Shown here one piece after another: positions 1-46,023 of a stretch of 64,000 nucleotides of DNA. The notes under the pieces are model-generated. The model saw only the letters and a program-made list of their open reading frames with translations, did no database searches and was not told where the DNA came from. The translations under genes and the position numbers were made by a program. Source of the stretch: Buxus sempervirens. Taxonomy: Eukaryota; Streptophyta; Magnoliopsida; Buxales; Buxaceae. Position 1 is the stretch's first letter, and every line of letters starts with the position of its first letter. The stretch lies in contig OX387184.1 in the NCBI GenBank assembly GCA_947561395.2, positions 10,830,205 to 10,894,204 of the forward strand, written 5' to 3'.

Positions 1-944
1 GACTCTCTAGGGTTTCCGAAGACGAATTTGTTCGGGACGAAGGTATGTTATTTAAGTTATTGTCGTGCATTCGGCTCTCAATAGTATAAAATGTTTCCTT
101 GGAAAATCTAGGGTTTTTGAGTGGCTATTTTCGTTTGTTGGTAATAGCTCAGATTTGTTGCATCTTGTTTGTTTTTATATTCATTGGATTCACGTGTTCT
201 ATCATTGTATTTCAGTTTATTTTACGTATTCCGTCATTAATCGCAAGGTTTTGCATAATAAGGAAGAGTCCGGGTAGGAGTTAGTGTCATTTTTGGAATC
301 GCATTTTGACTATAACTGACCAGAACGTAAATTGCACAATTTATTTACTTTTAGTTGGCAAAGAAAACGGAACATTTATTAAAGTTAGTTGTCTTCTAAG
401 ATGAGGACGATGACTGGAATTACTGACCTTCTCCTATATCGCATTAATTTGAATAACTTTAGTATGGCCTTATTCTGTTAGTAACTATCCTTTTAGTGTA
501 TGTAGAGTCCTTTTGTGAGCTCAAGATTCTTCCATTTTGTATTGGATTTCAGCTACATTGTAAAAATAACTCTTTGGTTCAAGATACTACAGCCACAATA
601 GTGCTTTATTCAACATTTTTGGTTTGACGTAGCATGAATAATGTGGAACATAAGATATTGTTGATTAAAAACCATTTCAATGAGAATCTGAAAACAAGGG
701 AAAGATTAAAAACAGTTGTACACAGATTTATGTGATTTGACATTGATTAGTTATGAATTGTCATTATTAGTTTTCATAATTATCATCATAATCAATGGGT
801 TTTATATATGAATATGCATGTCTACAATTGATTTATGGTCTCCCTTTTTGGAGGACCATGTCTTCTCATGTATTTGTTGATGGTTATTGTGTTTTCTGTG
901 AGTTTATTCTGCCACATTTTGATTGGTTCAGACTTGTAACACAG
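1..944 (+). other. 5' leader and leader intron of the KH-domain gene
   Basis: The window opens in what looks like a 5' UTR exon ending at 42, followed by a good donor (GTATGT at 43). The next acceptors are CAG ending at 931 or 944, just before the coding start at 968. The roughly 890-bp leader intron is T-rich and holds no convincing ORF. The true transcription start probably lies left of the window. This is inferred from splice signals only. Confidence 0.5.
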
Positions 945-967
945 ATTTGCCATCATATTGCATAGAC

Positions 968-5694: not shown

Positions 5695-6240
5695 TATGCT
5701 TTAGCATCAGGTAATATTTTCCTTTTTGCTTTAGAAATTTGTTATTTAGCACATTTACGTACTGAGTGGGCATAATATTCATCATATATGTTATGCCACT
5801 GATTTATTTTTTTGTTTTTGGATAGCCCTTTTTGAGCACTGCCACATCTGTTGCTTACGTTACTTTATAGTTTCTTACTCAACCCTAGAGCAATAGATCT
5901 AATTCTTTTAATTATCTTTACCGTTTGAAACTTGATACCTCAGCAGAAGACCAAGAAGATGGAAGAATTCGAGCAATCTAATTTGCAGTTTTGAGACTTA
6001 CGAATTTCAGTGGAGTTTTACTAGGGAGACACACCAAAATTTGCAGATTCATCAGATAATACAAGGAAACATCAACTTTCAAGTACACTGGAAAATTGTT
6101 TAAATGGCTAAATTTTACCTTTAGTGCTCGTGGAACACAAGCAATCTAATTGCTTTGAAGTTTTATGTATACTTGAACAAAGTATTATTTACTTTCTAGT
6201 GTGAATATTATTTTTAGCATGCTGACTTGTTCGAAGGATA
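5695..6240 (+). other. 3' UTR of the KH gene with probable intron
   Basis: After the TGA at 5692-5694 a donor (CAG then GTAATA at 5711) and an acceptor (CCTCAG ending 5943) suggest a 3' UTR intron of about 233 bp. The junction would lie only 16 nt past the stop, too close to be expected to trigger nonsense-mediated decay. The polyadenylation site is not certain. Confidence 0.45.
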
Positions 6241-6818
6241 ATTTATATTCTCAAGATGAAAATGCAAATTCTTCTCACTGAAGCGTTATAGATTGACAGA
6301 AGATGTAGATATAGGGTTCTGATGTTCACAAAATCTGGTATAAAAGGAATTTTTATCTTGATATATCATTATCGCAATCTTTGTCTTACCTATATCTGCT
6401 TTGTTTTCTTGCATAGATGGTTTTAGATATTGAAATCCTTTATATATTGATTGATATCACTACCTAGGTGGCGATATAAATCAATGGTGTAATTAAATTT
6501 TTGCAATTCATGTAGTTGTATATTGTGAATAAGCATCATGCATTGATATGGGTGATACATATTGATGTTGAATACTGCATCCTGTTTACTATTGTGCATT
6601 GATTATTACAAGTGGTCAAATATGGGGAAATTTTACCAACATTTATCCTATTGTAACCATTTCTTGACCAAAAATGCTTAAAATCTTCAAATCCTAGAAA
6701 CTTGAAATTTGATTCCAAAAAACTTACTATACGGTTCATCAATTCTTCTTTGATTGACATGTATTTTATTGCATAGTTGTCGATTACATATATTGAAACC
6801 TAAAAAATCTAGGAAAAT
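6241..6818. other. Unassigned AT-rich intergenic DNA
   Basis: Nothing recognisable: short ORFs only, no terminal repeats and no domain motifs. Confidence 0.6.
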
Positions 6819-6821
6819 TAA

Positions 6822-7251
6822 GGCATCGTTTGGTGTTCATTTTCCAAGGGTTAGAATGAATTTGAGGGGTTAAATGGGTGTTTGTTTCCATTTGGGGAAT
6901 GATTTTTGAAAAATACACTACAACACAGAATTGCCCTAATACCCATATCTGGATTTTCAAAATGAGTTTTGCAAAATTGTGGTGGCATAATTATAATACC
7001 TGTAAATTCTGAAGGATATACTTGAAACTTGTTTTAAAAACTTTTTTATATGACAAAGACAGAATTGTCATTTACAAAAACTTCTTTTAAGTTAAAACAA
7101 TGGAAAAATTATAATATTTATAAGCTCTAAAAGAATCTATCATCCTGAATCAAACGTCAAACCTAACCTTTCTTCAACTTATCAAAACTTATTTGAGGAA
7201 TGAGTAGCATGGGAATTCATTCCCAATCTAGATTGAAGGCCAAATGAGGCC
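6822..7251. mobile_element. PIF/Harbinger (Tourist-like) MITE, 430 bp
   Basis: Terminal inverted repeats GGCATCGTTTGG (left) and CCAAATGAGGCC (right; reverse complement GGCCTCATTTGG). They are flanked by direct TAA copies at 6819-6821 and 7252-7254. Size, absence of coding capacity, 3-bp TAA target duplication and TIR sequence fit Tourist-type MITEs. Confidence 0.75.
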
Positions 7252-7254
7252 TAA

Positions 7255-8999
7255 ATTTTGTGGTTTCTATGTAAATTTGTAATGTTACTCCTTGATGTTT
7301 ATGTTTATATAACTATTTTTGGGGAACTCTTGAGCTACATGTTGGTCCAAAAGCGGTTGATTTTTTAATTGTTTAATTTAATCACTTCATGAATATTGAT
7401 TAAAAATTTTTAAGCAATTTTTTGGTAGTTTTAAGGTTTTGATATATAATGTGACTTTGTTATAAAATTTTCATATAAAATCAATTTCTTCTTTTTGATT
7501 CTGAAAACCATATTAAATTCAAAAATTTTAAGAAATACAGATTTGTTATGGATAGATAATCAGACAAGTACTAGCTAAATATTAACATTTAGAATAGCTT
7601 TTTCCCTTAATTTTGTTTCAATTTCTTAACTTTTTGGGCAAGTTTGATATTTCCCTTCATATATCGAGTGATATTTCCTCTTTCTTAGGTTGGTGACATG
7701 TCTAGTAATATATAACTATATGAGTACCTCATTTTTATACCCTTAAAAGGGTTCCTTCTAGATGTAAGGACATTGTGTAGTTGCGTTGAAGATACACTCC
7801 TTAGTGCTAGCCACGAGGAGTACTAGTTGTGTCAAGAGCAGGTAACAGTTATCAAATGCTTCTGATTCTTTGATATCCCTGAAGTATCATTACAGTGACC
7901 ACACTTTTTTTTTCTGCTAGATGATCATAATTTGTTTTCTCTGATATTTGTTGCTGCTGCTGTTTAATTTTTTTTTTTAAATAAATGCCTCAAAAAATGT
8001 GTTTATTTGTTGTGCATGTCAAGTGTCATTGGAAGGGTCTTAAAGTGATGGTAGCCATGTATTTCATTTCAGTGGATCTGCCCTCCTAAAGGGTAGTATT
8101 GATGATATGAGGCCGAAAATGTTCGTGATTGAGAGTATTCATCGTATAATGCTTCATAGTCAATAGTGTATACTTTGTTGTTCCTTTTACCATCCAGAAA
8201 ATCACTTGGCTGAAAGCATTTGATCAAATTGATATTTTTGATGCAATTCGTATACTTGATAGGATCCATCATATAATGCTTCCTGATCCTTTATGAGAGT
8301 AAGCCATGTGGCTGTATCTAATGCTTGAAGATATATTAAGATGCGAGACTAGATTTTGCGATATTTTTCAACCATTTTTGAAGTAAATGATAGTCTTACA
8401 CTTCTTTTGTCTTGGTATATTTCGAGAGCAAATAGTGCTTTGAGCATGTTTGGTATGAATCTAACTGTTTGATGTTGCTCAATGATCTAACTGGCTGATG
8501 CTGCATCTAAAAATTGTTAGTTGAGCTTAAGTAGTTATAATTGCTCTATGATAGTTGCTTCTTTCTTTTTCTTTTTTTTTCAAACATTTTTATTTTTTTT
8601 CCAGAAATTAGCTGAAAATTTTACTATAAATAGATGGATAAATTGCACAAAAAGAAAAAAAGAATGATATAGATATAAAGAGAAAAAAACAAACTACACA
8701 TCAAAGCAGATAAATGAATCCCTGCCTGCTAGCACTACCCCATTTGGGGAAAAGGTCAATGACTTTTTAGATTATAATTTTAAGAAAAAGGGAAAAATGG
8801 ATAATTGATAGAGTAGTGCATAAGAAACAAAAGGATGCATAAAACAAAGAAATAGGAAGAAAAAAAATATAGTCATCAAGACAGCTAAAATACTTTGCAA
8901 GATAGATAATATGTGTCTTCTAATGGTATCCCATTTGGAACTTCGTCGGACAGTCACTCTCAATACCATCCGTGGAAAGAGATTCTGTCATGCTATTTG
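7255..8999. other. Unassigned intergenic DNA
   Basis: AT-rich with homopolymer runs (for example around 7965-7980 and 8570-8600). No ORF of family-like composition and no clear terminal repeats were seen. Confidence 0.6.
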
Positions 9000-9560
9000 C
9001 TAATATTTGCACCTTTGATAACAAGATTGTTCATTGATTATGCAAGAGATCTGACCAAATGATGGACATAGGTGAGGATGAAGGGCCATCTGCTAGTGCC
9101 TTGGCATGGGAAAGGTTGGAGCTGAAATTCCCTAATCAATCCATGAAGAAAGCACGTGATTACCGTTTGCCCACATGGAAAATAACTCTAAAATGAACTT
9201 TCAGCGGTTGTGCAATTTTTGGAAGTACCAGGACTGATCTATGAGCACCCATTGGGAAGGGGGTTTCAGATTGACTGATTCTTCCTTTGCCCTGGAAATC
9301 CAGTCTTGGGCAGAATTCCAGTCTCTCAAGATATCAGAAATCAGTAAGTCTCTTAACTTTGAAAGCACTTTAGTCGAGTGCGTAGTATTGATTATGACCC
9401 CCTTAATTATCATGAAAATATGGGGGCATTTGTTCTCCATATTGTCCCAAATTGCCTATGAAATTGTGTTCCTCAAATTTCTACAAAGAAACTTCCCTCT
9501 TGAAATCAATTTCCAGGGCCTGAACTAATGGAACATATGACACATCAGATAGCATAATCC
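9000..9560 (-). pseudogene. Possible decayed LINE fragment (linker between zinc-binding and RNase H regions)
   Basis: On the minus strand, broken frames near 9201-9440 read like the linker of plant L1-type elements between the RT zinc-binding segment and RNase H. There is a stretch of the form N-K-hydrophobic, then a Lys-Pro-Pro-x-x-Trp-Val-Leu motif resembling the usual W(K/R)PPxxWVKLN. Stops and frame changes are frequent. The match is weak and could be chance. Confidence 0.3.
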
Positions 9561-10785
9561 AAGGCTCTTGAAAGTTGAAAGTTATGAACCATATGCCTCT
9601 TGCAACATCACAATTGAGTAATAAGTGGGTTATTCAGAGCATGTAATGCACGCAAACGGATTTATAATCGCTCCTTTTTAACATATCATTATGTCTAATT
9701 TTTCATGGATGCAGTTCAAGTGATAGCTTTGATCCTTTCAGTGATTTAGATACCTATCAAGAAGTGATCAAGACATTAGGTTTATTGTGACTGCTGTTAA
9801 TAACCTTGGAGAAAGATTTACTAGAGAAGGCACCATTATGAGGAGACCAAATCCCGCAGTCTTATTCTGAGGGATGATTAGAATCGTTCTTTACCTTTTT
9901 GAAAGGAGAGGCTAGCTCACCGAAATCAGCTGGTGTTGCCTCCTGCATGGATTAAATCCAAATGCTACCAAGAAAGAATTCTAGGATGGCGTTTGCCTCC
10001 TTTATTTGATTCAAGATGAAGAAAACAGAGAAACTTGGAAGGAGTGTGAAGAGTCACTACACCAGAAATGTTTCCAGAAAATAAGTTTCAAACCCCTTAT
10101 CCTAACTGAAATAAACAATAGCAAGAATAAGTATAGAGAGCACCAGAATGAGTTCTAAGGACTTGATGCAGGAATCCTTACCTCTGTATTTATTTCCTGA
10201 CCATTTCAACTAATGCCATTCTGTGATAACATCAACCTATAAACTGTTCCTTTTATAATTTGATCTCAAATCTTCTTGCTCAATACAATGGAGTTACAAG
10301 CTAGTATATTACCCAGTCTGCATTTCCTTCCCTTGCGTACATGAGGCTTCTTGATTTTATGGCTTGGAACTTAGAAGGACAAAGTAACGTTGGCATGAAT
10401 GTTAGCTGATGACTCTTGAGTCTTGTACAGGACTATTTTTACGTTCAAAAGGAGGTTGTTTCTCTTTCTTCTTGCAAGATTTCTAATCCTGTACAAAATT
10501 GAACCTGAAAACCAAGTGTTTTGGTGGTTTACACCAGTATTTTTAGTCTTTCCCTTAGGCAAAGAACTGTTCTGTGCTTATGTTTGTTGTAGTTTGTTTT
10601 GTATACCCCACTTCCATTTATTGTCAGACCTCATATGGAAGAGGGAATCAATGGTGTCTATATTTCTGTTGGATTTTCATATGGACTTATGTGGGACTCT
10701 GACTTCTGAAGGGACTCAAGATCGCTGACTTTGTAGAGTTGTTGAACCTCTTAGCGTTTGAAGATGATTTGTTTATTTTCATTTA
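9561..10785. other. Unassigned intergenic DNA
   Basis: No recognisable gene. Some of it may be the decayed upstream part of the LINE relic that becomes readable from about 10790. Confidence 0.5.
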
Positions 10786-10789
10786 TTTT

Positions 10790-12025
10790 GAATCTCCGGA
10801 TTCCTGTATACAGAAATTCCTTATTGTCACAGGCTACACCAGTGACCCAATATGATTTTTTTGGGTGCATGATCCAAGATGAGTCCAGGTTTCATCTATT
10901 CTTATATTGTGTCATTGTGTGGGGAATATGTTATTTTTTATTCAGCTGATTGATATTGATGCCATATTGGCTTGGTTCTTTGTTGGACCATTTAATTGGT
11001 GTAGGATGACGCAAAAGTCAGTATTTTATGCTGTATGATAGGCAATTTTGTGTGAGAAGAGCTGGAGGGTTTTTGAGTTGCCATTAGGTCCATTGCTGAC
11101 TTAGTCATGTTTTCAGTGACTCTTGGATGATTGTATATCCGGATTTCGGAGAGATTGTGGCTTTGGATTTTATGAGAGAGTGGAAATTTATTTCTCATAC
11201 ATCATACCTCTAGGTGGATCACTCTAGAGCTTGAAAGCCCTTGACAGAGTGTTCCATCAAACTCAATTTTGATGGCTCCTAGACGGGGAATCCAGGGTAC
11301 CTGTAAGGATATAGGATTATTTGGTGGTCATGTAGGATTATGCTATATGTTTATTTAGTGCCGATCAAGGGTGGATAATATTCATGCCTTAGTGGCCAGA
11401 GTGAGATAGGTGATAGAGCATAGGTTCTACAATTAGATGTGGATGGAGATTATCTATGGCAATCTATTGGCTAGCTTCTTCCCAGCCACATACATGTACT
11501 TAGTGGCTTACTCATTTATTATGGTTATCTAGATCTTTGAACATTGGGATGAACACTTTGTTTTGTCATATGCCTAGATCTGCCAATGACCTAGCGGATA
11601 GATTGGCCTAGAACAATGTAGTTAGATAAACTTTTGTTTTTATAGGACTTACAGATGATATGCTTTATGGTAAGAGTGATTATTTTTTGCCCTACTGATT
11701 CTTTATTGTGTATCATTATGAGCCCAGTGCTGGTGATGATAGGTTTTTACCAAGGACACATACAATACACGTACTTAGTGGTTTAGTCATTTATTATGGT
11801 TGTATAGATCTTTGAACATTAGTATGAACACTTTGTTTTGTCATATGCCTAGATATGCCAACGACTCAGTGGATAGATTTGCCTAACAAAAATGTGGTTG
11901 GTTAAACTTTTTTAGGACTGAAAGATGGTATTCTTTATGGGAAGAGTAATTATTTTTTGTCTTACAGATTATTTATAATGTATCATTATGAGCCCAGCGC
12001 TGGTGATGGTAGGTTTGTACGAAGG
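10790..12025 (+). pseudogene. Decayed L1-type LINE: zinc-binding and RNase H regions
   Basis: Plus-strand frames broken by many stops still show the order typical of plant non-LTR elements. First a zf-RVT-like segment (C-x-x-x-D-E-S-x-F-H-L-F-x-x-C near 10850-10925). Then the RNase H start IKLNFDGS followed by TGNPG (about 11260-11300). Then the RNase H end motif CHMPRSANDLADRLA (about 11560-11610). The end motif occurs again near 11840-11890 because of a local duplication. The element is non-functional and no ends were defined. Confidence 0.75.
11491..12025 (+). repeat. About 275-bp tandem duplication within the LINE relic
   Basis: The stretch from the TACATGTACTTAG motif (11491) to the GTGATGATAGG motif (about 11750) is repeated from 11766 to about 12020. 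Both copies cover the end of the RNase H relic, including the ANDLADRLA motif, with roughly 10-15 percent divergence judged by eye. Confidence 0.85.
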
Positions 12026-12089
12026 ATCAGCTATGAGCCTCTATTTCTGTGCTTTAATTATGAATGAATTAACTAGTCATATCCAACGG

Positions 12090-12830
12090 GGGGTGATTTG
12101 GTATACGATATTTATGGATGAAATAGATTTGATAGAACAAACCAAGGAGTAAATGCAAAATTGAATGTAGAAGGATAATTTTGAATCCAAAGGTTTAAAA
12201 ATACATTGAGCTCGACGAGTCTACATAACGTAACTTCATTCCTAAAAATGATAGGAGCCATAGAGGCAAAACAAGATTAAGATTCGATAACAAAAGATTC
12301 CTAAAATTAATCAATTTTGTTATCTTGGTTCAATCATTTACAAGGAGGGGGATATTGACAAGGGTGTTGGACGTATAATTAGAGTTGCATGGCTTAAGCG
12401 AATAGGTGTGTCTAGGGCATTATGTGACTGGAATTGCATTTAAATTAGAAAGAGAAATTTTCTAACAGTCATTAGGCATGTTATGATATATAGTCAGAAT
12501 GTTGCACAACAAAAGTAACATATGCATTCAATGAGAATTTTTGAGATGCAGATGCTGAAACAGATTTGTAGGGATATTACGAAAGATAAGGAATGAACAT
12601 ATCCGAGAGCATTGTGGTTTTATCAAAACAGGTGCTAAAATATAAGAGAAAGTAGGTTAAGATGGTTTGGGCATGTAAAGAGAAGATCTACGGAGGTAGC
12701 TGTGAGGTGTGATAGGACAGTCATTGAAAGATACAAGAGATAAGGAAATGACCAAAATGAACATGGTGGAGTTGGTTAGAAAGGCTTTGACCATAAGCAA
12801 AGGGTGCACACATGTATGTTGTGGAGATAT
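12090..12830 (+). pseudogene. RTE-type LINE reverse transcriptase C-terminus, decayed
   Basis: Broken plus-strand frames match the C-terminal RT region of plant RTE-clade elements in order: GVNAKL near 12150, a YLGSII-like segment (written here as L-S-W-F-N-H after decay) followed by EGDID near 12345, an RALCDWN-like segment near 12415-12435, then NIRESRLRWFGHVKRR near 12635-12690. This last motif is diagnostic of the family. Stops and frameshifts abound, so this is a relic. It lies directly behind an unrelated L1-type relic. Confidence 0.8.
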
Positions 12831-31385: not shown

Positions 31386-32274
31386 CTGGCGTTTGGGGGG
31401 CATTATAAAATCTGGATTCTAGTAAAATCCAATTCCATAATCCAAAAGGTGTGTTTGGTTGGGATTTTAAGGTCGGATTCTACTATCTGATTGTATAATC
31501 AAGGTTATAATCAGAATCTACTTTTTTTGGTGATTATAAGGATTATGGACATTGATGCTTATATTTCCAAAACCTGTGATTCTAGAGATTATGTATAATA
31601 TATTATATAAAACATATTATAATAAATAATAACAATATAAGTATTATAATATAATATAATTTGTTATATGATATATAATTGATAATACAATATTAAATTA
31701 TATTACATGTAATATAAATATCATTATTATAATAATATTATACATTATTATATTATATATAATAAATTATAAATTTCAATATAATGTACATTATAAATAA
31801 TTATTATTATTATAATATATTATTTTAATAACAAGAAATTATAATATAACTTATATTACATTATAAATTTTATTATAATAAACATATTATTATCTTATAG
31901 TATTATTATAATAATATTATATATTATTATTATCATATTATTATAATAATACTATTATAATATTATATATAAATTTATATATTATATAAAATATACATGT
32001 TACGTAATAATATATATGATTTTAAATACGACTTTAATTTTTCTATATATATTATATTATTTTTATGTAATTTTTAATAAAATACTCCAAATTTAATCTC
32101 AATAATTGGTGGCAACCAAACAAGATTCTAAATTCTAATTTAAAATTTTGAGTTCACAATCTAACTTATCCAAATAGGATTTTGGTTTTCTAAAATCGAG
32201 GAAATATAATATGAGTTATAAAATCTAGGATTATAATCCTAATCCAGATTCTATAATGCCCACCAAACGCCACC
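31386..32274. mobile_element. PIF/Harbinger-like MITE with A/T core, about 889 bp
   Basis: Long terminal inverted repeats: TGGCGTTTGG and GGCATTATAAAATC at the left are matched by GATTCTATAATGCC and CCAAACGCCA at the right, over at least 30 bp. Direct TTA copies flank it (31383-31385 and 32275-32277). The interior from about 31580 to 32080 is almost only A and T with many TATTATAATAAT palindromes. There is no coding capacity. Confidence 0.8.
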
Positions 32275-34242: not shown

Positions 34243-34336
34243 ATTGGGGATTGTTCGATTAAAACCGATAATCCCAAGTGAAACAAAGCTATTAAGTTGG
34301 TTTTGGGTTTGCATTAACCGGTTCGAAAAGCGACCG

Positions 34337-34625
34337 ATTTCTTCTGCGTCGTTTCCTCTTACGAATCCTCCGATAAGCGTTCGGTAGACGACACGCGTCC
34401 CCCTCAGTTCAGCCGAAGTTTTCAGCCGACCCAAACATTTTTGAGCCGCATTCGTGAAAATGGCTCGATGGGAGCTGCGTTCGAAAATTCACTTCGTCGA
34501 AATGGGGCTTGTTGGCGGGAAATAAAAAACTGCAATCCTCTCAAATCCGAAGCAGAAGCATATCAAAAAAGTTTTCTTCATACTATTTTTCATCTCTCTC
34601 TCTGGTTACAGAGGCTGAAACATGG
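34337..34625 (+). repeat. Leader-like duplicated segment, copy A
   Basis: Contains GACACGCGTCCCCCTC, GTTTTCAGCCGACCCAAAC, GAAAATGGCTCGATGGGAG, CAATCCTCTCAAATCCGAAG and GAGGCTGAAACA. The same blocks appear in the same order on the minus strand near 45600-45270, and partly at 43312-43150. The blocks look like a promoter plus 5' leader rather than coding sequence, because frames differ among copies. Confidence 0.85.
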
Positions 34626-34672
34626 CTGTCGGTCATCCACAACGGAAGACTACCCAAGCAAGGAACCCAAAC

Positions 34673-35428
34673 GAAAGTGGTGACAATTTCTCTTCAATCT
34701 GAACTCTTTTTAACCTTTTGATTCATGCGACAGGTCAAAAACCATTATTGACGTGAGCAAATAATTGGCGATCGTTAATGGAAGACATGATAATTTCAGA
34801 ACGGAAGAGCATTCAATGGCAATTTGTCAAAATTTTTTATTCTCCTCTTGGCAAGCTTGGAAATCAATTCTAATCTCAGGGAATCGTCGAAATCTGCATT
34901 GTTCTCACTTGCCCGGTATAGCAAGCCTGGTTCTGGTATGTTGTTATGGTTTTTCTCCCTTTCTTCTATTGGCATGGTTCTGGATTTACTAATACTTGTT
35001 ATGTGTTCGACAAAATTCCTCTGTTGTAGGCATTGTCAAGGCAATGAAAGTGGTGACGATTTCTCTTCAATCTGAACTCTTTTTAACCTTTTGATTCATG
35101 CGACAGATCAAAAACCACTATTGACGTAAGCAAAGAATTGGCAATTGGCGACCGTTAATGGAAGACATGATAATTTCAGAACGGAAGAGCATTCAATGGC
35201 AACTCGTCAAAATTTTTTATTCTCCTCTCGGCAAGCTTGGAAATCAGTTCTAATCTCAGGGAATCGTCGAAATCTGCATTGTTCTCACTTGCCCGGTATA
35301 GCAAGCCTGGTTCTGGTATGTTGTTGTTCTGGTTTTTCTCCCTTTCTTCTATTGGCATGGTTTTGGATTTACTAATACTTGTTATGTGTTCGACAAAATT
35401 CCTCTGTTGTGGGCATTGTCAAGGCAAT
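34673..35428 (+). repeat. About 373-bp tandem duplication
   Basis: GAAAGTGGTGAC(A/G)ATTTCTCTTC starts at 34673 and again at 35046, with the following roughly 370 bp repeated almost perfectly, including a possible donor (GGTTCTG then GTATGTTG) and acceptor (CTGTTGTAG). The duplicated unit may contain a leader exon of the downstream gene. Confidence 0.9.
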
Positions 35429-36466
35429 GAATTTTGCTATTAAGTTTGGCCATTCTGGTTTAGTCTGCCTAGATTAGAGATGAATTTTGCAATTAAGTTT
35501 GAAATCTTGATATGAATTTTTTAATTCAGATACATCACGGAACAGGGAAAATTGGTTTTTTTTCTGCTTTAGGTAATTCTCCAAATGGATATCATAGATT
35601 AGAGACAACTAGGACATGTAAAAACGTGTAAGCAGAAGAAAAGCGGTTAAGCCTGAAAACTTTGTACTCAATTCCTCTGAAGATTAATTGACTCCAGGTT
35701 GCTCCCTTTAAGTCTTCTGAATTTGATATCTTATAGCTTTTGCTAGAAGGGATGCTCTTTATCGTCACTGGTCTATTTAGGATGATATTGATAAATTGTA
35801 GGAGTAGATTACCTGGGTGTTTAAGTGTTTAACTGAAGTGAATTTTCAGCATCAAAGTGAATGCTGATGTAACACTATTCTCTTAGAAACATGATACAAG
35901 TAAATATTTTCTGTGACGGTTAACTTGATTGTGCAGTGTAATGTATATTGGATGGATTGAGTGAATCTTGATCTTCATACAGTGTTCCCTGAAAAGACTG
36001 TCAAAATATTTCTATTTTCTCTGTTATGAGTGCTCTGCTGAAGAAAGTGCTATATAAAGTCAAAAGAGCATGATTTCTAGTGAGTCTGAATGATTTCCAT
36101 CAACTGGAGATTATACATAATCCAAGAAATATATTATTTGTCTCAGGATATGTATTAAAAGAATAATGGTCAAGAGTCAAAATGTTGAAGGCCCGATGAA
36201 TGCAATGTTTGGCATTCCATTGGAAGTGAATCTGAATATTAATACATCATATCCATCACTTATTAATCGGTGGCTTGGTTTCATAATTTAAAGTGGGGGA
36301 CTAGATGTTTCGCAATTCTCTTTATATCTTTAGCCAATTTGTTTCTTCATATTGTCAATTAAACCTTTTTTGTCTCATTTAAGAATCTTGTAGTCCTTAA
36401 ATTGTATATGACAATCTGCTCACATCTTCGTTGGTTATAATGTTCATTTTATTTGTTGCAATAGTC
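35429..36466. other. Region upstream of the HMG-box-like gene
   Basis: AT-rich, no recognised gene. It may be an intron between leader exons at 34.4-35.4 kb and the coding start at 36467, since an acceptor (GCAATAG ending 36464) lies directly before the ATG. Confidence 0.45.
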
Positions 36467-39075
36467 ATGGCAAGGAAGAAAGTGCTAAATCCATGCCGTG
36501 TAAGAAGACAAACTCGTTCAATTTCAAAGGATGCAGCAGCAACCTCTCCCATTGCATCAGTTGCTCCACGAAGACCGTTAAACCCATGGGTTATATTCAT
36601 GTAAGAGAAATATCCAACATTAAATTTTGTAATTTAGAATTAAAAGTTATATTTGTTATGAGTCTAAGTAAAAATAAGAAATGCTTCATCAATTATATAT
36701 AGTGTTGTTACGAATACAATAAACAAAAAATAACAAAGAGAATTGAATATGAAAAATGCAACTAGGTTTTATTTTATTATATGCTTTAGTATATGTTTAA
36801 AAAATATTTGTGTACTTCTTATAAGAAGGAGTATATCGCAGAACGCAAACGAGGAGGAGAAACAATCACACAACGCAAGGCATGCATTTAAAGTCTTATC
36901 TTAATGATTATATATTATAGAGCATATTGTTAGGTGTTCTTTATATTTGAAGCTCCTTGAACAGTAGTTCTAATGTCGGCATATGTGTTTCTTGTCATTC
37001 CTTCTCACTTCCCCTAATTCAAGCTAGATTTGGGTTCTTTTATGTAAAACTGAATTATTAATCTTTAATAATTTAATATGTAGGGGATGAGAGATGCAAA
37101 ACTAAAGTGGGACAGTTTGGGACAAGAAGAGAGGCAGCACTATCAAGAATTGTCTGCCCAAAGTATAGTAGATTATCGATCTTTGCGTCCTGCACAAAAA
37201 GAAGAAAAATGTTCAGGTAACACCAACTGAAACATGTTTTTTATATAATTCAGAAAGATTTGTAGTTAGGAGCTACCATTGTTGTTGTGCCCGACCAAAA
37301 TATTGTTGGTGTTACTTTCTATTTTCTGCTGAAAATAGATTTTTGAAAACCATTTATGGGCTTTTCTTCAACTCACATATTATATCATCTAGTCAAGGTT
37401 TTGTCCTACACTTCTATTATTAGATTTTTTTCCTAGAATATCTTCGTGTTGTGTTTAATTAGCACTTTATGTGCAATTGCAGCCTTGCGTGGTGACAAGA
37501 TGCTCGCCTAGAAGGTTCATGGCTTGTTGCAAACAGCTTACGACAGACCAGCGATTGGCTATTGATGCAATTGGTTTTGGGCCCCTTCTCCATCTCCAAT
37601 GCACATCCCTTGTAAAGGAGTTATGTGCGTGGTTAATTCAGCAAGTAGATGTAGATACCCGTAGCTTAAAAATTGGCGCGTATTCTATACCGATAGGCAG
37701 TGTAGATGTCAGCATTATTGTGGGACTTAGACACCTTGGACATCCTGTCATCATCTCTGGACCAGATGATATAATATGTGAGGTTCGTGATATGTTTCAA
37801 ATTGAGAAGCACGGAATACCACTGTCAAACTTAGAATCTAGGATGCGTTCACTAGGAGGTGGCCCTGAATTTAAAAGAGAATTTGTTTTATTCGCATTAG
37901 GTTCACTCTTGTGTCCAAATTCGAACCTACATGCTAGTATTACCTTTTTACATAGTGTGGTAGATGTAGGTAGTTTATCTGAATTAAATTGGGCAGCATT
38001 TGTGGTTGACCGGCTTTTTGAAGAAATAAAAATTTTCCAAATCAAGAAGAAGCAGTCTATAGGTGGTTGCCTTTTATTCTTACAGGTGAGGACTTACAAT
38101 AAGTGTTTACAGTATTTGTTACATTTGTAATGTTTTTTTATTTTACTTATTAAAGATATCCGTGTCGAGTAAGATGGTTGACCACCTTTGTTTTCAGTTG
38201 TTTTATTATGAGCATGTTCTTTTGGGTCCGGCCGAGGCTGACATACGGACACCACGATTGTTGGTTTGGACTCAAGAGCGTGTCAAGAATAGAGAAAAAG
38301 CAGAGAAAGTTGCTAGCGGTTATGGGCGTGGACAGGTATATTGTATTTTATAACTGCCTTGTCATTAAAATAAGAATTTTTCTTATACTTTGTGTGTTAT
38401 ATAGGTAGATCCAACAAGATTGAGGAAGTATGTTGAAAGTGGCAATGAAAGCATTCAAGATAAAATCCCAGACATCAATCATGTAAGAAAGTATCTCCAC
38501 AGTTTCCATAATGAAGGTTCCCGCTTTAGTTGTTGTGTTACAATATTCCCAAATTCCCTAATTATGTGTTGTGTAGGTTGATCCTCCTGAATTCGAGGAT
38601 GCTACCGCCATTGCCAATGGAGACACTAGAACTTACATTGCAAACAATGATCCTGTAAGAAAGCATCTATAAGATTTTCACTTATACTTTTTGTGTTTGA
38701 CTTATGTAATGGTGCATTATATAGGTTGAACACCAAAGTTTTTTGAAGGATGCAGCTGTATGCATAAAAGATATTCGATACGAAATTCCAGACATTGACC
38801 CTGTAAGATTTGTTTCTACTGATAATTCTATGATTTAAATAGGAAGAACTGTTGTTTTACGTTTTCTTCATTCTTTGAGTTGTGAATCTAACCATATAAT
38901 CAAACTTTGTTAGGAGGTGGCTAGTAAATTGGAGCATATGCAGGTGCTACTGCAGACTAGGAGTTATGCATATTCATCATCATTAGCACTTGTAAGAGAG
39001 GTCTATGGAAGTCACAAAGACATGGGTAATGCCTCGCAAGGTAGAAGTGACTTGGGAGCCCAACAACATGGTTGA
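36467..39075 (+). CDS. Unknown protein: HMG-box-like N-terminus plus transposon-associated plant domain
   Basis: Not a recognised named gene. Proposed exons: 36467-36600, 36829-36892, 37084-37216, 37463-38085, 38198-38335, 38405-38482, 38577-38654, 38725-38802, 38914-39075; phases agree and give 495 aa. The first 110 residues resemble an HMG box: basic start, RRPLNPWVIF, then KLKWDSLGQEERQHYQELS. Residues about 115-360 start with RCSPRRF and LTTDQRLAIDAIGFGPLL. They then show CAWLIQQVD and VSIIVGLRHLG, and FALGSLLCPN. This is the domain often found before Ulp1 peptidase in plant transposon-derived genes. No Ulp1 catalytic residues follow. Three 78-bp exons (26 aa each) come next, then a 53-aa C-terminus. 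The exon-2/3 boundaries and the exon-4 acceptor at 37463 are chosen by phase and are the least certain. It may be an exapted or degenerating transposon gene. Confidence 0.65.
38405..38802 (+). repeat. Three tandem 78-bp exons encoding 26-aa modules
   Basis: Exons 38405-38482, 38577-38654 and 38725-38802 are each exactly 78 bp, phase 0 at both ends. They begin Val-(Asp/Glu) and end in DINH, NNDP and DIDP. The first and third share the IPDI motif, and each is followed by GTAAGA. Separating introns are 94 and 70 bp. This points to tandem exon duplication. Confidence 0.75.
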
Positions 39076-39307
39076 ATGTTTTTGAAAATTTAGTTTTGGT
39101 AAAACAGGAAATCAAAAGAATTTCGTTAATTCTTTTGATATTTGGATGTATTTCATTCTTTTCATATTTCGAAGTATGTATATAACTTCTTCTTTTTTTG
39201 AAGGAAAATGTATATACCTAATAGGCTGTATGGTTTGTGAACATAACTTTGTTAATTCTTTTTACCTCTATAATGCAATTATAATCCAAATCAGGAAACT
39301 CAATTCT

Positions 39308-41505
39308 AAAGGGTGCTAAAAACACCAAATGGCATAGTATGATACAATCACATTCACATGGGAAACTAGCACAATCATACGAGGACACAATCACACTCAT
39401 AAGGGGGAAACAAGTATGATCATAGAGGGATGCATGCATTTTCATAGCAGGCTACAAGCCCTATCTAGGGGGGATACAAGCATTTTTCATAGGAGGATAC
39501 ACATATAATCATAGAGAATACAAGCATTTTTATAGGAGGATACAAGGCCTGTCATAGAGGGATACAAACATGTTCATAGGAGGATACACGTATAATCATA
39601 GAGGGATACAAGCATTTTCATAGGAGGATACAAGGCCTGTCATAAGGGGGATACAAGCATGTTCATAGGAGGATACACGTATAATCATAGAGGGATACAA
39701 GCACCCTTATAGAAGGATACAAGTCCTGTCATAGGGGGATACATGCATGTTCATAGGAGGATACACGTATAATCATACAGGGATACAAGCACCCTTATAG
39801 GAGGATACAAGGCCTGTCATAGGAGGATACATGCATGTTCATAGGAGGATACACGTATAATCATAGAGGGATACAAGCATTTTCATAGAAGGATACAAGA
39901 CCTGTCATAGGGGGATACAAGCATGTTCATAGGAGGATACACGTATAATCATAGAGGAATACAATCATTTTCATAGGAGGATACAAGTCTTGTTATAGGG
40001 GGATACATGCATGTTCATAGGAGGATACACGTATAATCATAGAAGGATACAAGCATTTTCATAGGAGGATACAAGGCCTGTCATAGGGGGATACAAGCAT
40101 GTTCATAGGAGGATACACGTATAATCATAGAGGGATACAATCATTTTCATAGGAGGATACAAGTCCTGTCATAGGGGGATACATGCATTTTCATAGTAGG
40201 ATACAATCACACTCATAGGGGGATACAAGTATTTTCATAGGAGGATACATGTATAATCATAGAGGGATACAAGTATTTTCATATGAGGATAAACGTATAA
40301 TCATAAAGGGATACAAGCATTTTTATAGGAGGATACAAGTCCAGTCATACGAGGATACCATTATTTTCTTAGTTCACACTCACAGGGAGATACACGTATA
40401 ATCGAATGCCGTTACAGAGAGCATTTCGTCTTCTACGATTCGGTGATACAATCCGTGATACGCGAACAGATGGCGTCCCGTAATGGGAGCGGGCATTAAC
40501 CCCCGTTTCATTTTTTTATAATTATTATTAGTTTTTTCTTTCAAAGTATGTTCGTGTGAGACAAATTCGGTGTTGGTGAGAGAGTGAATGGTTTTGGTTT
40601 TCAGATTTCAAGTCAGATTTCAAAACGAAGGAATTAATGATTTCGTCTGACACGATAGAAAATAAATAATAAATAAAACAATAAAAAAGCATAGACAAGC
40701 GTTAACGCCCCTTTTTGTTAGCTCACTTTATTAGGGATGCGCGGCTACAATCCCTTAAGTGTATCACGGATGGTACCACCAAATGGCAAGAAATGAAACG
40801 CACTTGCCGTTTCATAGTAGGGGAAACAAGTATAATCATGGAGGGATACAAGCATTTTCATAGGAGGATACAAGTCCTGTCATAGAGGGATACAAGCATT
40901 TTCATAGGAAGATACAAGGCTTGTCATAGGGGGATACAAGCATGTTCATAAGAGGATACACGTATAATCATAGAGGGATACAAGTATTTTCATAGGAGGA
41001 TACAAGTCCTGTCATAGGGGGATACAAGAATTTTCACAAGGAGATACACGTATGACAGGACTTGTATCCTCCTATGAAAATGCTTGTATCCCTCTATGAT
41101 TATACTTGTTTCCCCCTACTATGAAACTAATTGTATCCCTGTATGACAGGACTTGTATCCTCCTATGAAAATGCTTGTATCCCTCTATGATTATACGGGT
41201 ATCCTCCTATGAACATGTTTGTATCCCCCTATGACAGGACTTGTATCCTCCTATGGAAATGCATGTATACCCCTCTATGATTATACTTGTTTTCCTATAC
41301 GAGTGTGATTGTACCTTACTATGAAAACAATTGTATCATCGTATGGTAGGACATGTAACGGCAAGTGTGTTTCGTTTCCTACCATCTGGTATGAAAATAC
41401 TTGTATTCCCCTATGAATGTGATTGTATCCCCGTATGATTGTGCTAGTTTCCCATGTGAATGTGATTGTATCCTACTATGCCATTTGGTGTTTTTAGCAC
41501 CCTTT
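39308..41505. mobile_element. Foldback-type element: minisatellite arms within inverted terminal repeats
   Basis: The left end, starting AAAGGGTGCTAAAAACACC (39308), reappears inverted as GGTGTTTTTAGCACCCTTT ending 41505; about 76 bp match with few differences. The interior is made of about 22-bp units of the form GGATACAAGCATTTTCATAG. They are arranged in roughly 88-bp higher-order sets of four (CATTTTCATAG, CCTGTCATAG, CATGTTCATAG, TATAATCATAG variants). Units run in plus orientation to about 41045 and in inverted orientation from about 41050. No transposase and no clear target-site duplication were seen. The layout matches foldback elements with modular tandem-repeat arms. Confidence 0.8.
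40390..40820. other. Non-satellite core block in the foldback element
   Basis: About 400 bp of unique, locally GC-richer sequence interrupts the left array. It carries ATCCGTGATAC near its left end (about 40448) and its inverse GTATCACGGAT near the right (about 40760), so it is itself loosely bounded by inverted repeats. A segment at its right edge (ACGCACTTGCCGTTTCA) returns in inverted, diverged form near 41350-41390. No ORF of note. Confidence 0.6.
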
Positions 41506-41960
41506 GTAGAGATGGAAGCCTTCTATATTTCCAACCAACTTATGCACCATTTGAATCTAACTGTATCCCTATATGACAGGACTCGTATCCCTCTATGATT
41601 ATACTAGTTTCCCCTTACTATGAAACTAATTGTATCCCTATATGACAGGACTTGTATCCTCCTATGAAAATATTTGCATCCGTCTATGGTTTAATAACAA
41701 ATGTCTACAACATGTTTTGTATTCAGTTGGTTTTCTTGTTCAGATATTTTCCTCTTCACAGACTTGATGTTAAGAAAAATATCACATACAATCCATCGAA
41801 AGCTTGAACAAGTATTGCTTTCCCAAAAATAATTAGTTGAGGTGGATAGGCTTTGGATACCAAATGCCAATTTCAAAATACAAATGTATTCAAAACACAA
41901 TATATGAAACATACATGAAAAAAAAAACCCTTTATGTTTAATACAGGTATGTAAGCTCTT
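41506..41960. other. Extra satellite units and spacer beyond the foldback element
   Basis: 41560-41690 holds several more minisatellite units (for example GACAGGACTTGTATCCTCC) outside the terminal inverted repeat. Unassigned AT-rich DNA leads to the receptor-kinase fragment. The outlying units may mark an older, larger or nested element. Confidence 0.6.
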
Positions 41961-41974
41961 CCAATCAGCGTTGC

Positions 41975-42494
41975 ACCTTTCCGTAGCCCCCAGCTCAAAT
42001 TTCATTGCTTCCTGAGAAATTATCGGTGCACCTTTTGAGTTCATCATAAGAGAACCATCTGGCTCCTTTTAACTGTGGTGCTCCCCTGCTATCTTTACCA
42101 CTTGCAGCCCAAGATGCTGAAAGACACAGAACATCTATAGTAAGATAATATTTTCCACAAATTTCAGGCATTTAGATAATATAGTTTTATGCTGCAGACA
42201 TTACCAAATGGTTTACTCAACCTGATGGCCTTTTCTGCACGCTTCTTTTGCTGAATGGCATAGATGCCCAAAGCCACGAGTGCCAGGACCAGAATAGAGC
42301 AGCCGACTGCTATCCCTATAATTGCACCTCTACTCATTGAACTTTCTTTGCAATTAATACACCAAATATTCATTGAACTTTCTTTGCTTGTCCCTAAAAT
42401 ATTTTTTAAGTCAACACATAATTCTCAGTATTGTTTCAAATGATATAATAAATAACCAAAGTTATGAATGATGTACCTGAGAAAACATAAGGAG
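41975..42494 (-). pseudogene. Fragment of an LRR receptor kinase, subfamily VIII-1 (HPCA1-like)
   Basis: Minus-strand exons: 42494-42477 (PYVFS), 42393-42205, and 42116 to about 41975. The middle exon gives GTSKESS and then the transmembrane segment, from AIIGIAVGCSILVLALVALG to QQKKRAEKA. The last has SWAASGKDS, RGAPQLKGARWFSYDEL and CTDNFSGSNEI, and then TGA where the family has the first residues of the glycine loop; AGGYGKV continues in frame after the stop. The extracellular region and the rest of the kinase are missing, and a 19-bp segment is repeated inside the transmembrane exon. A non-functional remnant, not a complete receptor. Confidence 0.85.
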
Positions 42495-42983
42495 CTGCAT
42501 TAAACATTGTCAATATCATTTTCGCCCACAAACAGTGCCAAAAGAAAAGTAATAATAATAATAAAAACAAAATTAAACATAAAAATCCAAGAATGACAAT
42601 AAGCAAATAAGATGAATTCTGTCCCTAAAATCACTTATAAATAACAGCACTGATGCAAATATTTTTAGCTACACAAACAATATTTCAACAACAGAGCCAT
42701 CATAGAAAATATATTATTCACATGGAAGGAATGCTTACGTAAAATCCCAATCACCATTTGAAGTAGTGGAGTGAAATCAACGTATACATACGAACGGTAG
42801 CATTTGAAATTCAAAGAGGGAAACATAGAGACGAGGCGGGTGAAGAATATCCCAGAATCATGGAAAATGGAACATAAAACAGATACCCTTTATTCTAGAG
42901 AAGCAAAACAGATAGTAGTGACATAATCCAAATTCCTTATACTGCGGAATGGTGAAGAGGAAGGAGAAGAACTAAAGAAAACT

Positions 42984-43312
42984 TTCTCACCTTAAAACAG
43001 CAGAGAAATGCTGAAGAAATCCATGGTAGGCGGTCGATTTTATCTCCTCTGTATCTGCTTTGTGTTCTCTCACCTCTTCCTTGTCTCTTTCTTACCAGAT
43101 AACAGATCCACCACCATCTCCAGATCCATGGAAGAAGCTCACTCACCTTGTTTCAGCCTCGTTAACCAGAGAGAGAGATGAAGAAGAGTATGAAGAAAAC
43201 TTTTTTGATATGCTTTTGCTTCGGATTTGAGAGGATTGCATTTTTTGATTTCCCGCCAACAAGCCCCATTTGCATTCGAGCCATTTGACGAAATGAATTT
43301 TCGGACGCGGCT
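42984..43312 (-). repeat. Leader-like duplicated segment, copy B
   Basis: Near-identical to 45112-45460 (copy C): both hold CTTAAAACAGCAGAGAAATG, GGTAGGCGGTCGATTTTATC and GAAGAAGCTCACTCAC. On the minus strand there are good donors (for example CAAG|GTGAGT near 43149), suggesting leader exons of a minus-strand gene. It lies about 0.5 kb upstream of the receptor-kinase fragment and may be its former leader. Confidence 0.85.
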
Positions 43313-45111
43313 CCCTTCAACTCCCACAACAGCAATTATCAAATGCGAAACAGGTCCAAAATTCATTCTTAAGACATCCAATGAAGATGTTACAAGATAA
43401 AACACGCAAAAGTGATCCTACTCCTGTTCTCTCTTAGCGCCTTGTACTTGGGAAGGATAAAAAGGGAAAAGGAATATTCCCATTAGAGGAGACCCAGCAC
43501 TCAGAAACAGGCTCACTAGATTTACTCTTAAATGATATGCCTTAAAATTTGGTTCTACTCATCGACAAAGTCCCTTCATGGAATGGAATTATACAAACCA
43601 GAAAAGATAAGCCAACTGGGGCCATTCCTCCTCCAAGAAGCAAACATCATCTCAAACCTTTTAATAACATGACCTCGCATTCAATGAAGTACACAAAGCC
43701 AACAGAAACCCAAGATAGGAACAGAGCTTTTCCCTTGGAACATTCTGGGGAGAAAAATGAGTTATAGCTTTGTGGCTTTAACTTTCACCACTTGAATCAC
43801 TGCAAGTAGGCAGCCACTTGCAGACTAATTCCACCTTATAGCATCATAGAGAACTTTAACACCTCATTCGAAATGCACAGAGAACACTCAACACCTTGAA
43901 TGTCATATGTCCCAACCAAACATTTCATATATGCATCACTGAGATATCTACTTAAGACTGTTATTATCGAAGATTCCATAAGTAGCGTGATACTGTAAGA
44001 ACCACCAGCAGCAAGAATTGTGAAATCCAACAACAAGGCATACACTGAAGCTTGCTCCTTGTACGTTGCTTTGTTGTAAGATATTGGTTTTACCATCAAG
44101 TGTCGTAGGTCCAGTTTCTTTTCCTTTTTCCCCATTTCAAGCTAACAATTATACAATCCATATTTACAGTTTGAAGAAAATCCATCAATGGTATTCCATC
44201 TAGTAATGGATTTGTGTAATGATCCCAGAGAAGAATATCTAGATAATCTCAAGTTCCTCAACCGATCTCTAAATCCTAATCCGGAAACTACCATGGACTC
44301 ATCTCTAATATGGCATTACCTGTAAATCTATAGAAGTACTCACACACCATGTGAATGTTGGAACTTCTGTAGGGGAAAGCTAGATTGTGGTCATTAATAC
44401 GTGTCCTCAATAACAATTAGTTATAGTGCAAAGAAAGGTTTGATGATCCCAAGATCTAAACAACTGATAATCCAGTTTTTACAAATCTTCTCTTATTTCC
44501 TGTATAAATAAGTAAAAACTTTGTCTGGCATGAATGGGAGGACAACAGATTGGGGATACTTCTATACATACCCAAATGCATTTCAATAAATAATCAAATA
44601 AGTCGTATCAGAAATAGAGCATCAAGTCAGCAAGTTAATCTAATAGCGGAAACTAAATTCGACCCATATGCCAAAATTCTACAAAATGAAGAGGAAAAAA
44701 ATTACCTTTACATGAATGTGATGGACTCAAGAGTGGGTATGGAAGAAATCCCACAAGCGAGTAAAATCCTGAAACATGCATACGATATATATTTTTTAAA
44801 ATAGAGAGAAAAAGAAGCAGAAGAAACCCTAATACTCCTCATAACGGACCATCCCGAAAGCTTACCTTACTTTACTTTGCAACACGAGCTCAAAGGGGTG
44901 AAAAATGCCGTCTACTGAGTCGTGAGGGACGAGCTAGTGGAATGGGAGAGATTGGTTAGTCATCGAAGAGAAGAGGAGGCCTTTCAACCATTTGATTTCT
45001 TCATAAGACGAAAATGCATTTTCGTGCATTTTTTGATTTCTTCTACGTGCAATCCTCGAGCCATTTTCACGAAATCAAAAATTGCACGCAAATGGCTCGA
45101 TGGAGGAGAAA
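43313..45111. other. Unassigned DNA between duplicated leader copies
   Basis: No recognised gene. On the minus strand around 44800-44950 the composition resembles another leader with a GTAAG donor. The longest frame (99 codons, minus, 43836-44135) matches no family I recognise. Confidence 0.4.
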
Positions 45112-45600
45112 TTCTCACCTTAAAACAGCAGAGAAATGCTGACGAAATCCATGGTAGGCGGTCGATTTTATCTCCTCTGTATCTGCTTTGTGTTCTCTCA
45201 CCTCTTCCTTGTCTCTTTCTTACCAGATAACAGATCCACCACCATCTCCAGAGCCATGGAAGAAGCTCACTCACTTGTTTCAGCCTCTTTAACCAGAGAG
45301 AGAGATGAAGAAGAGTATGAAGAAAACTTTTTTGATATGCTTTTGCTTCGGATTTGAGAGGATTGCATTTTCGTGCATTTTTTGATTTCCCACCAACAAG
45401 CCCCATTTGCGTTCCAGCCATTTGAAAAGAATTAGCCATTTGAAAAGAATTTCGGACGTGGCTCCCATCGAGCCATTTTCACGAACTCGGCTCGAAAACG
45501 TTTGGGTCGGCTGAAAACTTCCGCTGATTTGAGGGGGACGCGTGTCGTCTCCCGATTGCTTGTCGGAGGATTCGTAAGACGAATCGCCGTAGAAGAAATC
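45112..45600 (-). repeat. Leader-like duplicated segment, copy C
   Basis: Right part (about 45270-45600) is the reverse complement of copy A at 34337-34625. Left part (45112-45460) matches copy B. Includes ATGGCTCGATGGGAGCC and CCGACCCAAACG on the minus strand. It sits 430 bp upstream of the malate dehydrogenase ATG and points away from it, so the space between may be a bidirectional promoter. Confidence 0.85.
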
Positions 45601-46023
45601 GTTCGTTCAAAAAGGTCGAGGGGATTTTGGATTTTCCCAAAACCGAAGCAAAATCTAACTGTTGCCATTCCTAGGCCCTTGGGCCCGGGGACAAGCTCTC
45701 GGTTTTTATAACAACGACAGAAAAAAACAGAAAAATCGACATCATCGTGTACATTATGGAACAAGCGCATTGAAGCCCTCCTGAATTTTGTTAGAGCAAA
45801 CGCTGTGGCAGCCTGAGGATAAGGATTTGAGTTCAGTTTCCAACACACGCGTCCCAATTTTCAAAGCAACCCATTTGCATCAGCCCTTTCTTAACTATTA
45901 CAGTACTTATCTCATCCCGTCGTTAGCTTTGCTTGTCGCACACCTCTTCCTCTCTCGTTCGTTCTCTCTTGCTTTCTCCGTTTCTGGACTCTGTGTGGGT
46001 GTTTTTTTAAGAGACCCAGGAAG
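45601..46023 (+). promoter_or_regulatory. Promoter and 5' leader region of malate dehydrogenase
   Basis: Sequence between copy C and the MDH start codon; pyrimidine-rich (TCTCTCGTTCGTTCTCTC near 45951) just before the ATG, as in many plant leaders. No unambiguous TATA box was found. Confidence 0.4.

Follow-up and report, generated by a model that had tools for sequence, protein, structure and literature searches.

A 22-bp array as an internal, length-variable module of large MULEs in Buxus sempervirens

What kind of unit is the 2.2-kb block of short repeats at positions 39308-41505 of a 64,000-nucleotide stretch of Buxus sempervirens contig OX387184.1 (hereafter the window, numbered from its first letter), and is it a transposon in its own right or a part of one? 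The original prediction, made from the letters of the window alone, described the block as a 2.2-kb foldback element with minisatellite arms. We addressed this question by comparing the block with its relatives elsewhere in the genome.

The array and its apparent ends

The repeat structure of the block was confirmed. It is built of 22-bp units, each consisting of TCATAGNNGGATACANG and a 5-bp spacer, that follow an 88-bp four-unit cycle set, with exceptions, by the spacers TATAA-CATTT-(T/G)CCTG-CATGT, and these units are mostly direct on the left and inverted on the right. Tandem Repeats Finder called periods of 22, 44 and 88 between 39344 and 40372, with the 88-bp period at 39397-40358 (score 1405), and further blocks at 40810-41053 and 41060-41290. 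The array stands far above chance, as the unit core has 64 matches (at most two mismatches) inside the element that encloses it versus a single one in the remainder of the 64-kb window, and exact two-unit matches number 423 genome-wide versus none for a reversed control pattern. The arms are joined by inverted repeat pairs of up to 163 nt. The matching inverted ends of about 76 bp are likewise real, with the outer edges at 39308-39384 and 41430-41505 agreeing in inverted orientation at 74 of the 76 positions compared, and the proposed transcript hairpin is strongly predicted (-930 kcal/mol, with 20 dinucleotide shuffles averaging -543 and with 74 bases of the left end predicted to pair with the right end). 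The description of units in fours, plus on a long arm and reversed on a short arm, holds in outline, except that a second direct block precedes the inverted arm and that units continue to about 41690 (Table 1).

The direct part is interrupted by a non-repeat segment with 24-bp inverted ends (40438-40461/40761-40784) and a possible target-site duplication (TSD), TGCCGTTAC/TGCCGTTTC, that was read by eye and agrees at eight of nine positions; this segment looks like a nested MITE-like insertion. It is complete in eight and partial in three of 11 copies compared. A separate AT-rich array with several overlapping periods is present at window positions 31594-31995.

The positions 39308 and 41505 are not termini. 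No TSD was found at them, the best 9-mer reaching only 6/9 over 169 offset pairs, and in other copies of the array both positions are internal. Specifically, 18 of the 19 other copies that were aligned (among them the near-identical twins L010 and L011) have an extra 64 bp at the left flank that prolongs the inverted arm. This stretch sits between two direct copies of gggtgctaaaaacacc and is absent from the window and L009 only; in one of the 18 copies that have it, L025, the sequence that follows is unlike that of the other copies. Since the extra 64 bp matches, in inverted orientation, sequence to the right of 41505, the inverted arm originally extended further, and 39308 marks a deletion scar. 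Essentially only direct units are present in nine of the 20 fetched loci, the window excluded (L014, L015, L017, L019, L020, L021, L023, L025 and L027). Thus, an independent 2.2-kb FARE-like foldback transposon that inserted beside the gene, a reading favored by the 74/76 match of the inverted ends, is contradicted by the missing TSD, by ends that are internal in relatives, by flanks that recur in other copies and by outer TIRs and TSDs that delimit a larger element. We consider this reading refuted by the present results and next to impossible. Ends that prove internal in other copies were also what the original prediction itself had named as grounds for its rejection. The suggested link to FARE elements also found no support in a limited set of foldback and FARE2 literature.

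Table 1. Coordinates of the array, the enclosing element and its gene in the window
Feature	Position	Strand	Basis
Whole MULE-type element, 11,275 bp, containing the array	34331-45605		inverted TIRs, 9-bp duplication at 8/9, TIR pairs around other arrays
Left target-site duplication TTCGAAAAG	34322-34330		8/9 to right copy
Left TIR1, begins CGACCGATTTCTTC	34331-34622	+	79% identical to 45276-45605 inverted (window self-comparison)
PMD gene main exon, open frame of 223 aa	37459-38130	+	PF10536, E 2e-7
Probable short downstream PMD-gene exons, stop at ~39072, putative borders	38150-39072	+	by eye; homologous frames in L012
Direct arm, 22-bp units with 5-bp spacer	39308-40417	+	tandem-repeat calls, copy alignment; 39308 is a deletion scar
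Non-repeat segment inside array, MITE-like	40418-40804		~387 bp, inverted ends
Second direct block of 22-bp units	40805-41048 (also ~40821-41048)	+	tandem-repeat calls
Inverted arm, including inverted copy of left array edge (41430-41505)	41050-41505	-	inverted repeats, edge match
Further inverted units	41544-41690	-	tandem-repeat calls, copy alignment
Junction: left side resembles PMD/Ulp1-type copies, right side (to 42506) another subgroup	41943		copy comparison
Right TIR1	45276-45605	-	self-comparison, genome search
Right target-site duplication TTCAAAAAG	45606-45614		8/9 to left copy

The enclosing TIR1 element and its genes

The real termini are a pair of TIRs of about 300 bp each, here called TIR1, at 34331 and 45605. 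The window holds an 11,275-bp MULE, of which about 5.0 kb precede the array and 3.9 kb follow it, so that the array is an internal part. When the right TIR1 was searched against the genome, at least 42 matches were returned (best 40 of 62 candidates scored), and these are paired around many array copies. We examined 12 TIR1 elements at both ends, including that of the window, all but C1:52.65M having been chosen around arrays; a thirteenth, C3:28.7M, was examined at its right end only. A perfect 9-bp TSD is present in eight of the 12 (seven by script and C12:42.5M by hand), an 8/9 TSD in the window and C4:19.9M, and a TSD displaced by 17 bp in C14:12.88M; C12:29.1M has none. As a control, 132 non-partner flank pairs taken from different elements reach at most 6/9. 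With its ~9-bp TSD and a transposase in its kin (see below), the element is a member of the MULE superfamily.

The array is present in 11 of these 12 elements, a share that is biased by the choice around arrays, and the exception, C1:52.65M, has a perfect TSD and a PMD exon with no array. In C22:1.66M, C4:19.9M and C14:12.88M the array is kept and most of the PMD exon is gone, as indicated by homology on the gene side that starts only at window position 38022. Three wide TIR1 pairs outside the 12, with TIRs 28-54 kb apart (C11:24.25-24.29M, C3:42.12-42.18M and C14:38.54-38.57M), contain no array among the matches listed, and the C3 pair also has none in the two-unit array search. Array size is highly variable between copies and the unit core is conserved. 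These comparisons place the array in the interior of large TIR1 MULEs, as a module of variable length beside the 3' end of the PMD gene.

The window copy itself looks chimeric at 41943, judging from the different subgroups that its two sides resemble. The segment 41943-42506 is repeated at 98-99% identity in L015, L019 and L023; its minus strand resembles, by eye, a receptor transmembrane stretch and is perhaps a captured piece of a host gene, and two short pieces to the right of 41943 gave no Pfam match. Other duplications include the inner right-TIR region (42984-43288 and 45112-45425, direct orientation, 94.6%) and a 389-bp tandem duplication just inside the left TIR (34670-35048 and 35043-35431, 93.8%). 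Note that L010 and L011 (C14:36.2M and C14:1.45M), both ~28.8 kb from TIR to TIR, are 100% identical over 9,918 bp compared, reflecting either a very recent duplication or an assembly artefact.

In regards to the neighboring gene, the original prediction had assigned it a domain associated with Ulp1-like transposon genes. That domain is the plant mobile domain (PMD), and a related element does contain Ulp1. The PF10536 match of the main exon, at 31 bits, is below the Pfam gathering cut-off of 34.9. PMD was the sole domain match of this exon at E values up to 1, with no DUF1985 among the matches, and a comparison with solved structures gave nothing meaningful (best E 0.13). Among 22 loci (the window, 20 fetched loci and L049) the exon is full-length in ten, the 12 others being dropped, and all ten exons have 670 bases with eight of them stop-free. 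Over 36 pairs from nine copies (L011, which duplicates L010, was left out), pN averages 0.018 and pS 0.038 for a ratio of 0.47, which is a crude average over related copies that includes three pairs above 1 that rest on few changes. Genome-wide there are at least 14 full-length frames at 88-100% identity, 10 of them stop-free (best 150 of 688 candidates scored), and the frames in these best 150 form a close clade (88-100%) versus far clades (~62% and below). On C1 and C3, where the list of array matches is complete, none of the 20 far frames listed is within 90 kb of an array match; of the seven close frames or fragments four (three loci) are within 5 kb of one and three are not. No two-unit array match lies near the close copies at C1:47.23M and C1:52.66M or near a fragment at C1:52.49M.

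Further genes are found in the relatives. L012 has a Ulp1 (C48) frame on its right side, on the opposite strand (PF02902, E 1.1e-6, 29.1 bits versus a cut-off of 20.7). Five pieces of the window that were scanned gave no Ulp1 match, and the window copy has other sequence in place of the Ulp1 side of L012. Beside the Ulp1 exon, on the minus strand at 7971-8648 (oriented), L012 has a 226-aa frame with the tandem peptide repeats QPxSPHDxG and DVGHGEQ, which are reminiscent of peptide repeats in the variable parts of VANC proteins; the L010 copy of this repeat-rich frame has no Pfam match.

A transposase frame of 843 aa with FAR1, MULE and SWIM domains is present at C12:42.5M. It occurs at 99-100% identity inside four 26-29-kb copies, the others being the elements at C14:1.46M, C14:36.2M and C11:5.6M, and is stop-free in three of them, with two stops in the C11:5.6M copy. 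No transposase was recognized among the few frames of the window copy that were scanned. This transposase family is common, with at least 54 matches (best of 1,299 candidates) that elsewhere are 78-91% identical, and the long copies might have the frame as part of a nested MULE. Within the 11 kb compared it is not surrounded by inverted repeats above 40 bp (the outer 3.5 kb of the element being outside this range), and an adjoining stretch of 5.1 kb is ~97% common to the shorter TIR1 elements L015 and L019, with parts in L023, which favors a transposase that is native to the family. With Ulp1 and transposase genes present in its kin, the idea that gene and array are parts of one transposon system is borne out.

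TIR2 mini-elements and a cassette common to two families

Array matches outside TIR1 elements belong to mini-elements with other ends, termed TIR2 (GGGAAAATTAYGGGAAAGGCC), for which a genome search gave at least 41 matches (best 40 of 184 candidates scored). Searches for TIR2 in the window and for TIR1 in the mini-elements gave no match. A nested TIR2 mini-element was considered as the source of the window array and was rejected because TIR2 is absent from the window. We chose 23 loci by TIR2 with their content not known beforehand (three close pairs without an array listing and 20 unpaired matches). Both TIRs were found within 1 kb in 20 of the 23, and every one of these 20 has the form TIR-array-TIR with 5-22 units; the remaining three show a single TIR and no more than one unit over the 1 kb examined. 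When five loci first found by the array (L050, L051, L052, L053 and L060) are added, 24 of 28 loci are paired, span 428-860 bp and all contain units. The TSD is perfect in 12 of these 24 and 8/9 in two (one in poly-A), with no TSD in the other ten (eight without a canonical end pair by script and two scoring 1 and 4 of 9). The array is in inverted halves, a true foldback form, in six of the 24, and the junctions between TIR2 and array are, by eye, of at least three kinds. With short paired TIRs and a 9-bp TSD, the mini-elements are MULE-derived MITEs, which may descend from a few array-bearing founders.

A large TIR2 element is also present. This 16-kb element at C19:15684765-15700838 is flanked by the perfect 9-bp TSD TATGAAATA, and its positions 5607-12478 match positions 865-8878 of the TIR1 copy L012 in three blocks at 86-92%. 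The blocks cover the PMD exon, the array edges and the Ulp1-side stretch, the Ulp1 domain itself having been scanned in L012 only. The C19 array (8656-9911) consists of tandem blocks with 36 units in all, first in forward and then in reverse orientation, and the cassette adjoins fragments of a disrupted MULE-type transposase (PF10551, E 1.2e-10). Four of its five frames were scanned and none gave a FAR1 match, and its DNA does not match L054. The C19 PMD frame has one stop, and that within a TIR2 pair at C15:5.84M (C15:5839463-5848262; 92% identity) has two; both PMD frames seen within TIR2 pairs thus contain stops, and no intact TIR2 cassette was observed. At the level of sequence similarity, these matches show that two MULE families with dissimilar TIRs and transposases share the PMD gene, the array and the Ulp1-side sequence. 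A TIR2 end near the array and window-type element sequence was also noted in L027 (664-790; C14:37.67M), which is perhaps another large TIR2 element, and a further pair of TIR2 ends is located at C22:23261868-23271722.

Possible roles of the array

Several known systems resemble this element in part. VANC21 is reported to bind the 9-bp motif YAGTATTAY and to strip methylation from the whole element; the motif is densely repeated in a single orientation within noncoding regions of the MULEs that encode VANC21, frequently as tandem repeats whose unit number rises and falls (PMC5735166). Like the VANDAL elements, the elements described here are MULEs with extra genes beside the transposase (PMC5735166, PMC10398659) and have noncoding tandem arrays of a short motif that is specific to the family, with array lengths that expand and contract from copy to copy. 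However, VANDAL TIRs are described as degenerate or absent whereas TIR1 is long, VANC proteins are described with DUF1985 whereas the neighboring gene has PMD, and the VANC21 motif differs from the unit described above, with no occurrence in the array and one in the whole window element. The window element, with its ~300-bp TIRs, no DUF1985 in the main exon and no YAGTATTAY in the array, is therefore not a VANDAL, and its array at best works like a VANDAL target array. As in KAONASHI and other Ulp1-carrying MULEs, the Ulp1 (C48) gene of the C12:42.5M copy is on the strand opposite to the transposase (PMC2528002); KI-MULEs are reported to be without TIRs, in contrast to the TIRs and 22-bp array found here, so the window element is not a KI-MULE. 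A plant mobile domain inside a MULE is known from PMD-carrying MULEs, although for several grasses and Amborella a fusion of PMD-C with the transposase is described (PMC5418596), whereas PMD is here a separate frame beside the array. Finally, foldback elements and Tetris have tandem repeats between or in their TIRs and TSDs of 8-10 bp, and the inverted-array TIR2 mini-elements resemble foldbacks, whereas the window array lies in the interior of its element and has no flanking TIRs of its own (PMC4079207). We found no description of the 22-bp array or of the PMD-array-Ulp1 cassette in the titles and abstract openings of the papers listed on VANDAL, KAONASHI and other MULEs with Ulp1, PMD and MAIL1, internal tandem repeats and anti-silencing.

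By analogy with VANDAL target arrays, the array may be a cis-acting docking platform for an element-encoded protein, our preferred but tentative reading, to which we give somewhat less than an even chance. The 22-bp unit would be the putative binding site of a sequence-specific protein encoded by the cassette, with the PMD protein as the best candidate binder among the parts common to both families. Once bound, the protein would protect the element from silencing by the host, a role that VANC proteins have on the motif arrays of Arabidopsis VANDAL MULEs. Elements that lack the gene would benefit in trans provided that they retain the array. The inverted arm would then be a rearrangement within the array and not its purpose. 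A trans-acting protein with a cis target is what one would expect given that the two families share the cassette and not the ends or transposase, and that mini-elements keep the array alone. Support comes from the array in 11 of 12 TIR1 elements, including the three in which most of the PMD exon is gone, and in all 20 paired mini-elements chosen by TIR2, and from a PMD exon that is kept open at a mean pN/pS of 0.47. Against docking are C1:52.65M, which has its PMD exon and perfect TSD with no array, the close PMD copies on C1 with no array match nearby, the stops in both PMD frames within TIR2 pairs, and a main exon without DUF1985, the domain that is marked in VANC proteins. A footprint test gives weak support: for clustering of the five most variable adjacent positions into the spacer, permutation p values are 0.015 in large elements, 0.012 in the window, 0.087 in mini-elements and 0.45 in C19, which indicates modest clustering.

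We rate as equally likely that the array is a neutral passenger, a minisatellite that expands and contracts through slippage and unequal exchange and that mini-elements inherited from their founders. Descent of this kind explains much of the data, including unit numbers that differ strongly between copies, the common rearranged, inverted and interrupted array forms and the existence of an array-free TIR1 element with a perfect TSD, and transposons with internal tandem repeats such as Tetris are known (PMC4079207). It accounts less readily for the retention of the array by all 20 TIR2-chosen paired mini-elements with several junction types, for one array in two MULE families with dissimilar TIRs and for a unit core that is better conserved than the spacer. 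That the units are instead secondary binding sites of the MULE transposase seems improbable to us. Tandem repeats in Galileo TIRs have been reported as transposase-binding (cited in PMC4079207), the units adjoin the TIRs on both sides in mini-elements and foldback forms set them symmetrically; yet in large elements several kb separate the array from either end (3.9-5 kb for the window copy and more for C19), which argues against an end-binding site there, and the FAR1-type transposase of TIR1 elements is dissimilar to the MULE-domain transposase of TIR2 (no FAR1 match in four pieces and no DNA match to L054). Still more improbable is a silencing trigger, in which siRNAs against the family would be diced from a hairpin formed by read-through transcripts of the inverted array. 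The predicted hairpin is very stable, and tandem repeats can be siRNA sources according to the VANDAL authors (PMC10398659), but nine of 20 fetched relatives have essentially only direct units, and when the aligned array ends of 19 left and nine right copies were read by eye, private changes in one arm were not mirrored in the other arm of that element (e.g. L010, L016, L018 and L022). Since the arms differ where the other arm keeps the family base, nothing seems to maintain their complementarity.

Returning to the docking platform, a more extended version of it, which we consider rather unlikely as a whole, is that an anti-silencing cassette consisting of the PMD gene and its 22-bp target array, together with the Ulp1 gene, was exchanged between two MULE families with dissimilar ends and transposases and that TIR-array-TIR mini-elements parasitize it by retaining nothing but the target array. 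That captured PMDs serve MULEs in anti-silencing is a speculation put forward by Ikeda et al. (PMC5418596). The pairing of a PMD gene with a private array that is also kept by gene-less mini-elements, a noncoding module common to two MULE families, provides a concrete candidate for the target sequence and makes this idea testable. If true, this would be a second, independent invention of VANC-type self-specific anti-silencing, built on the plant mobile domain.
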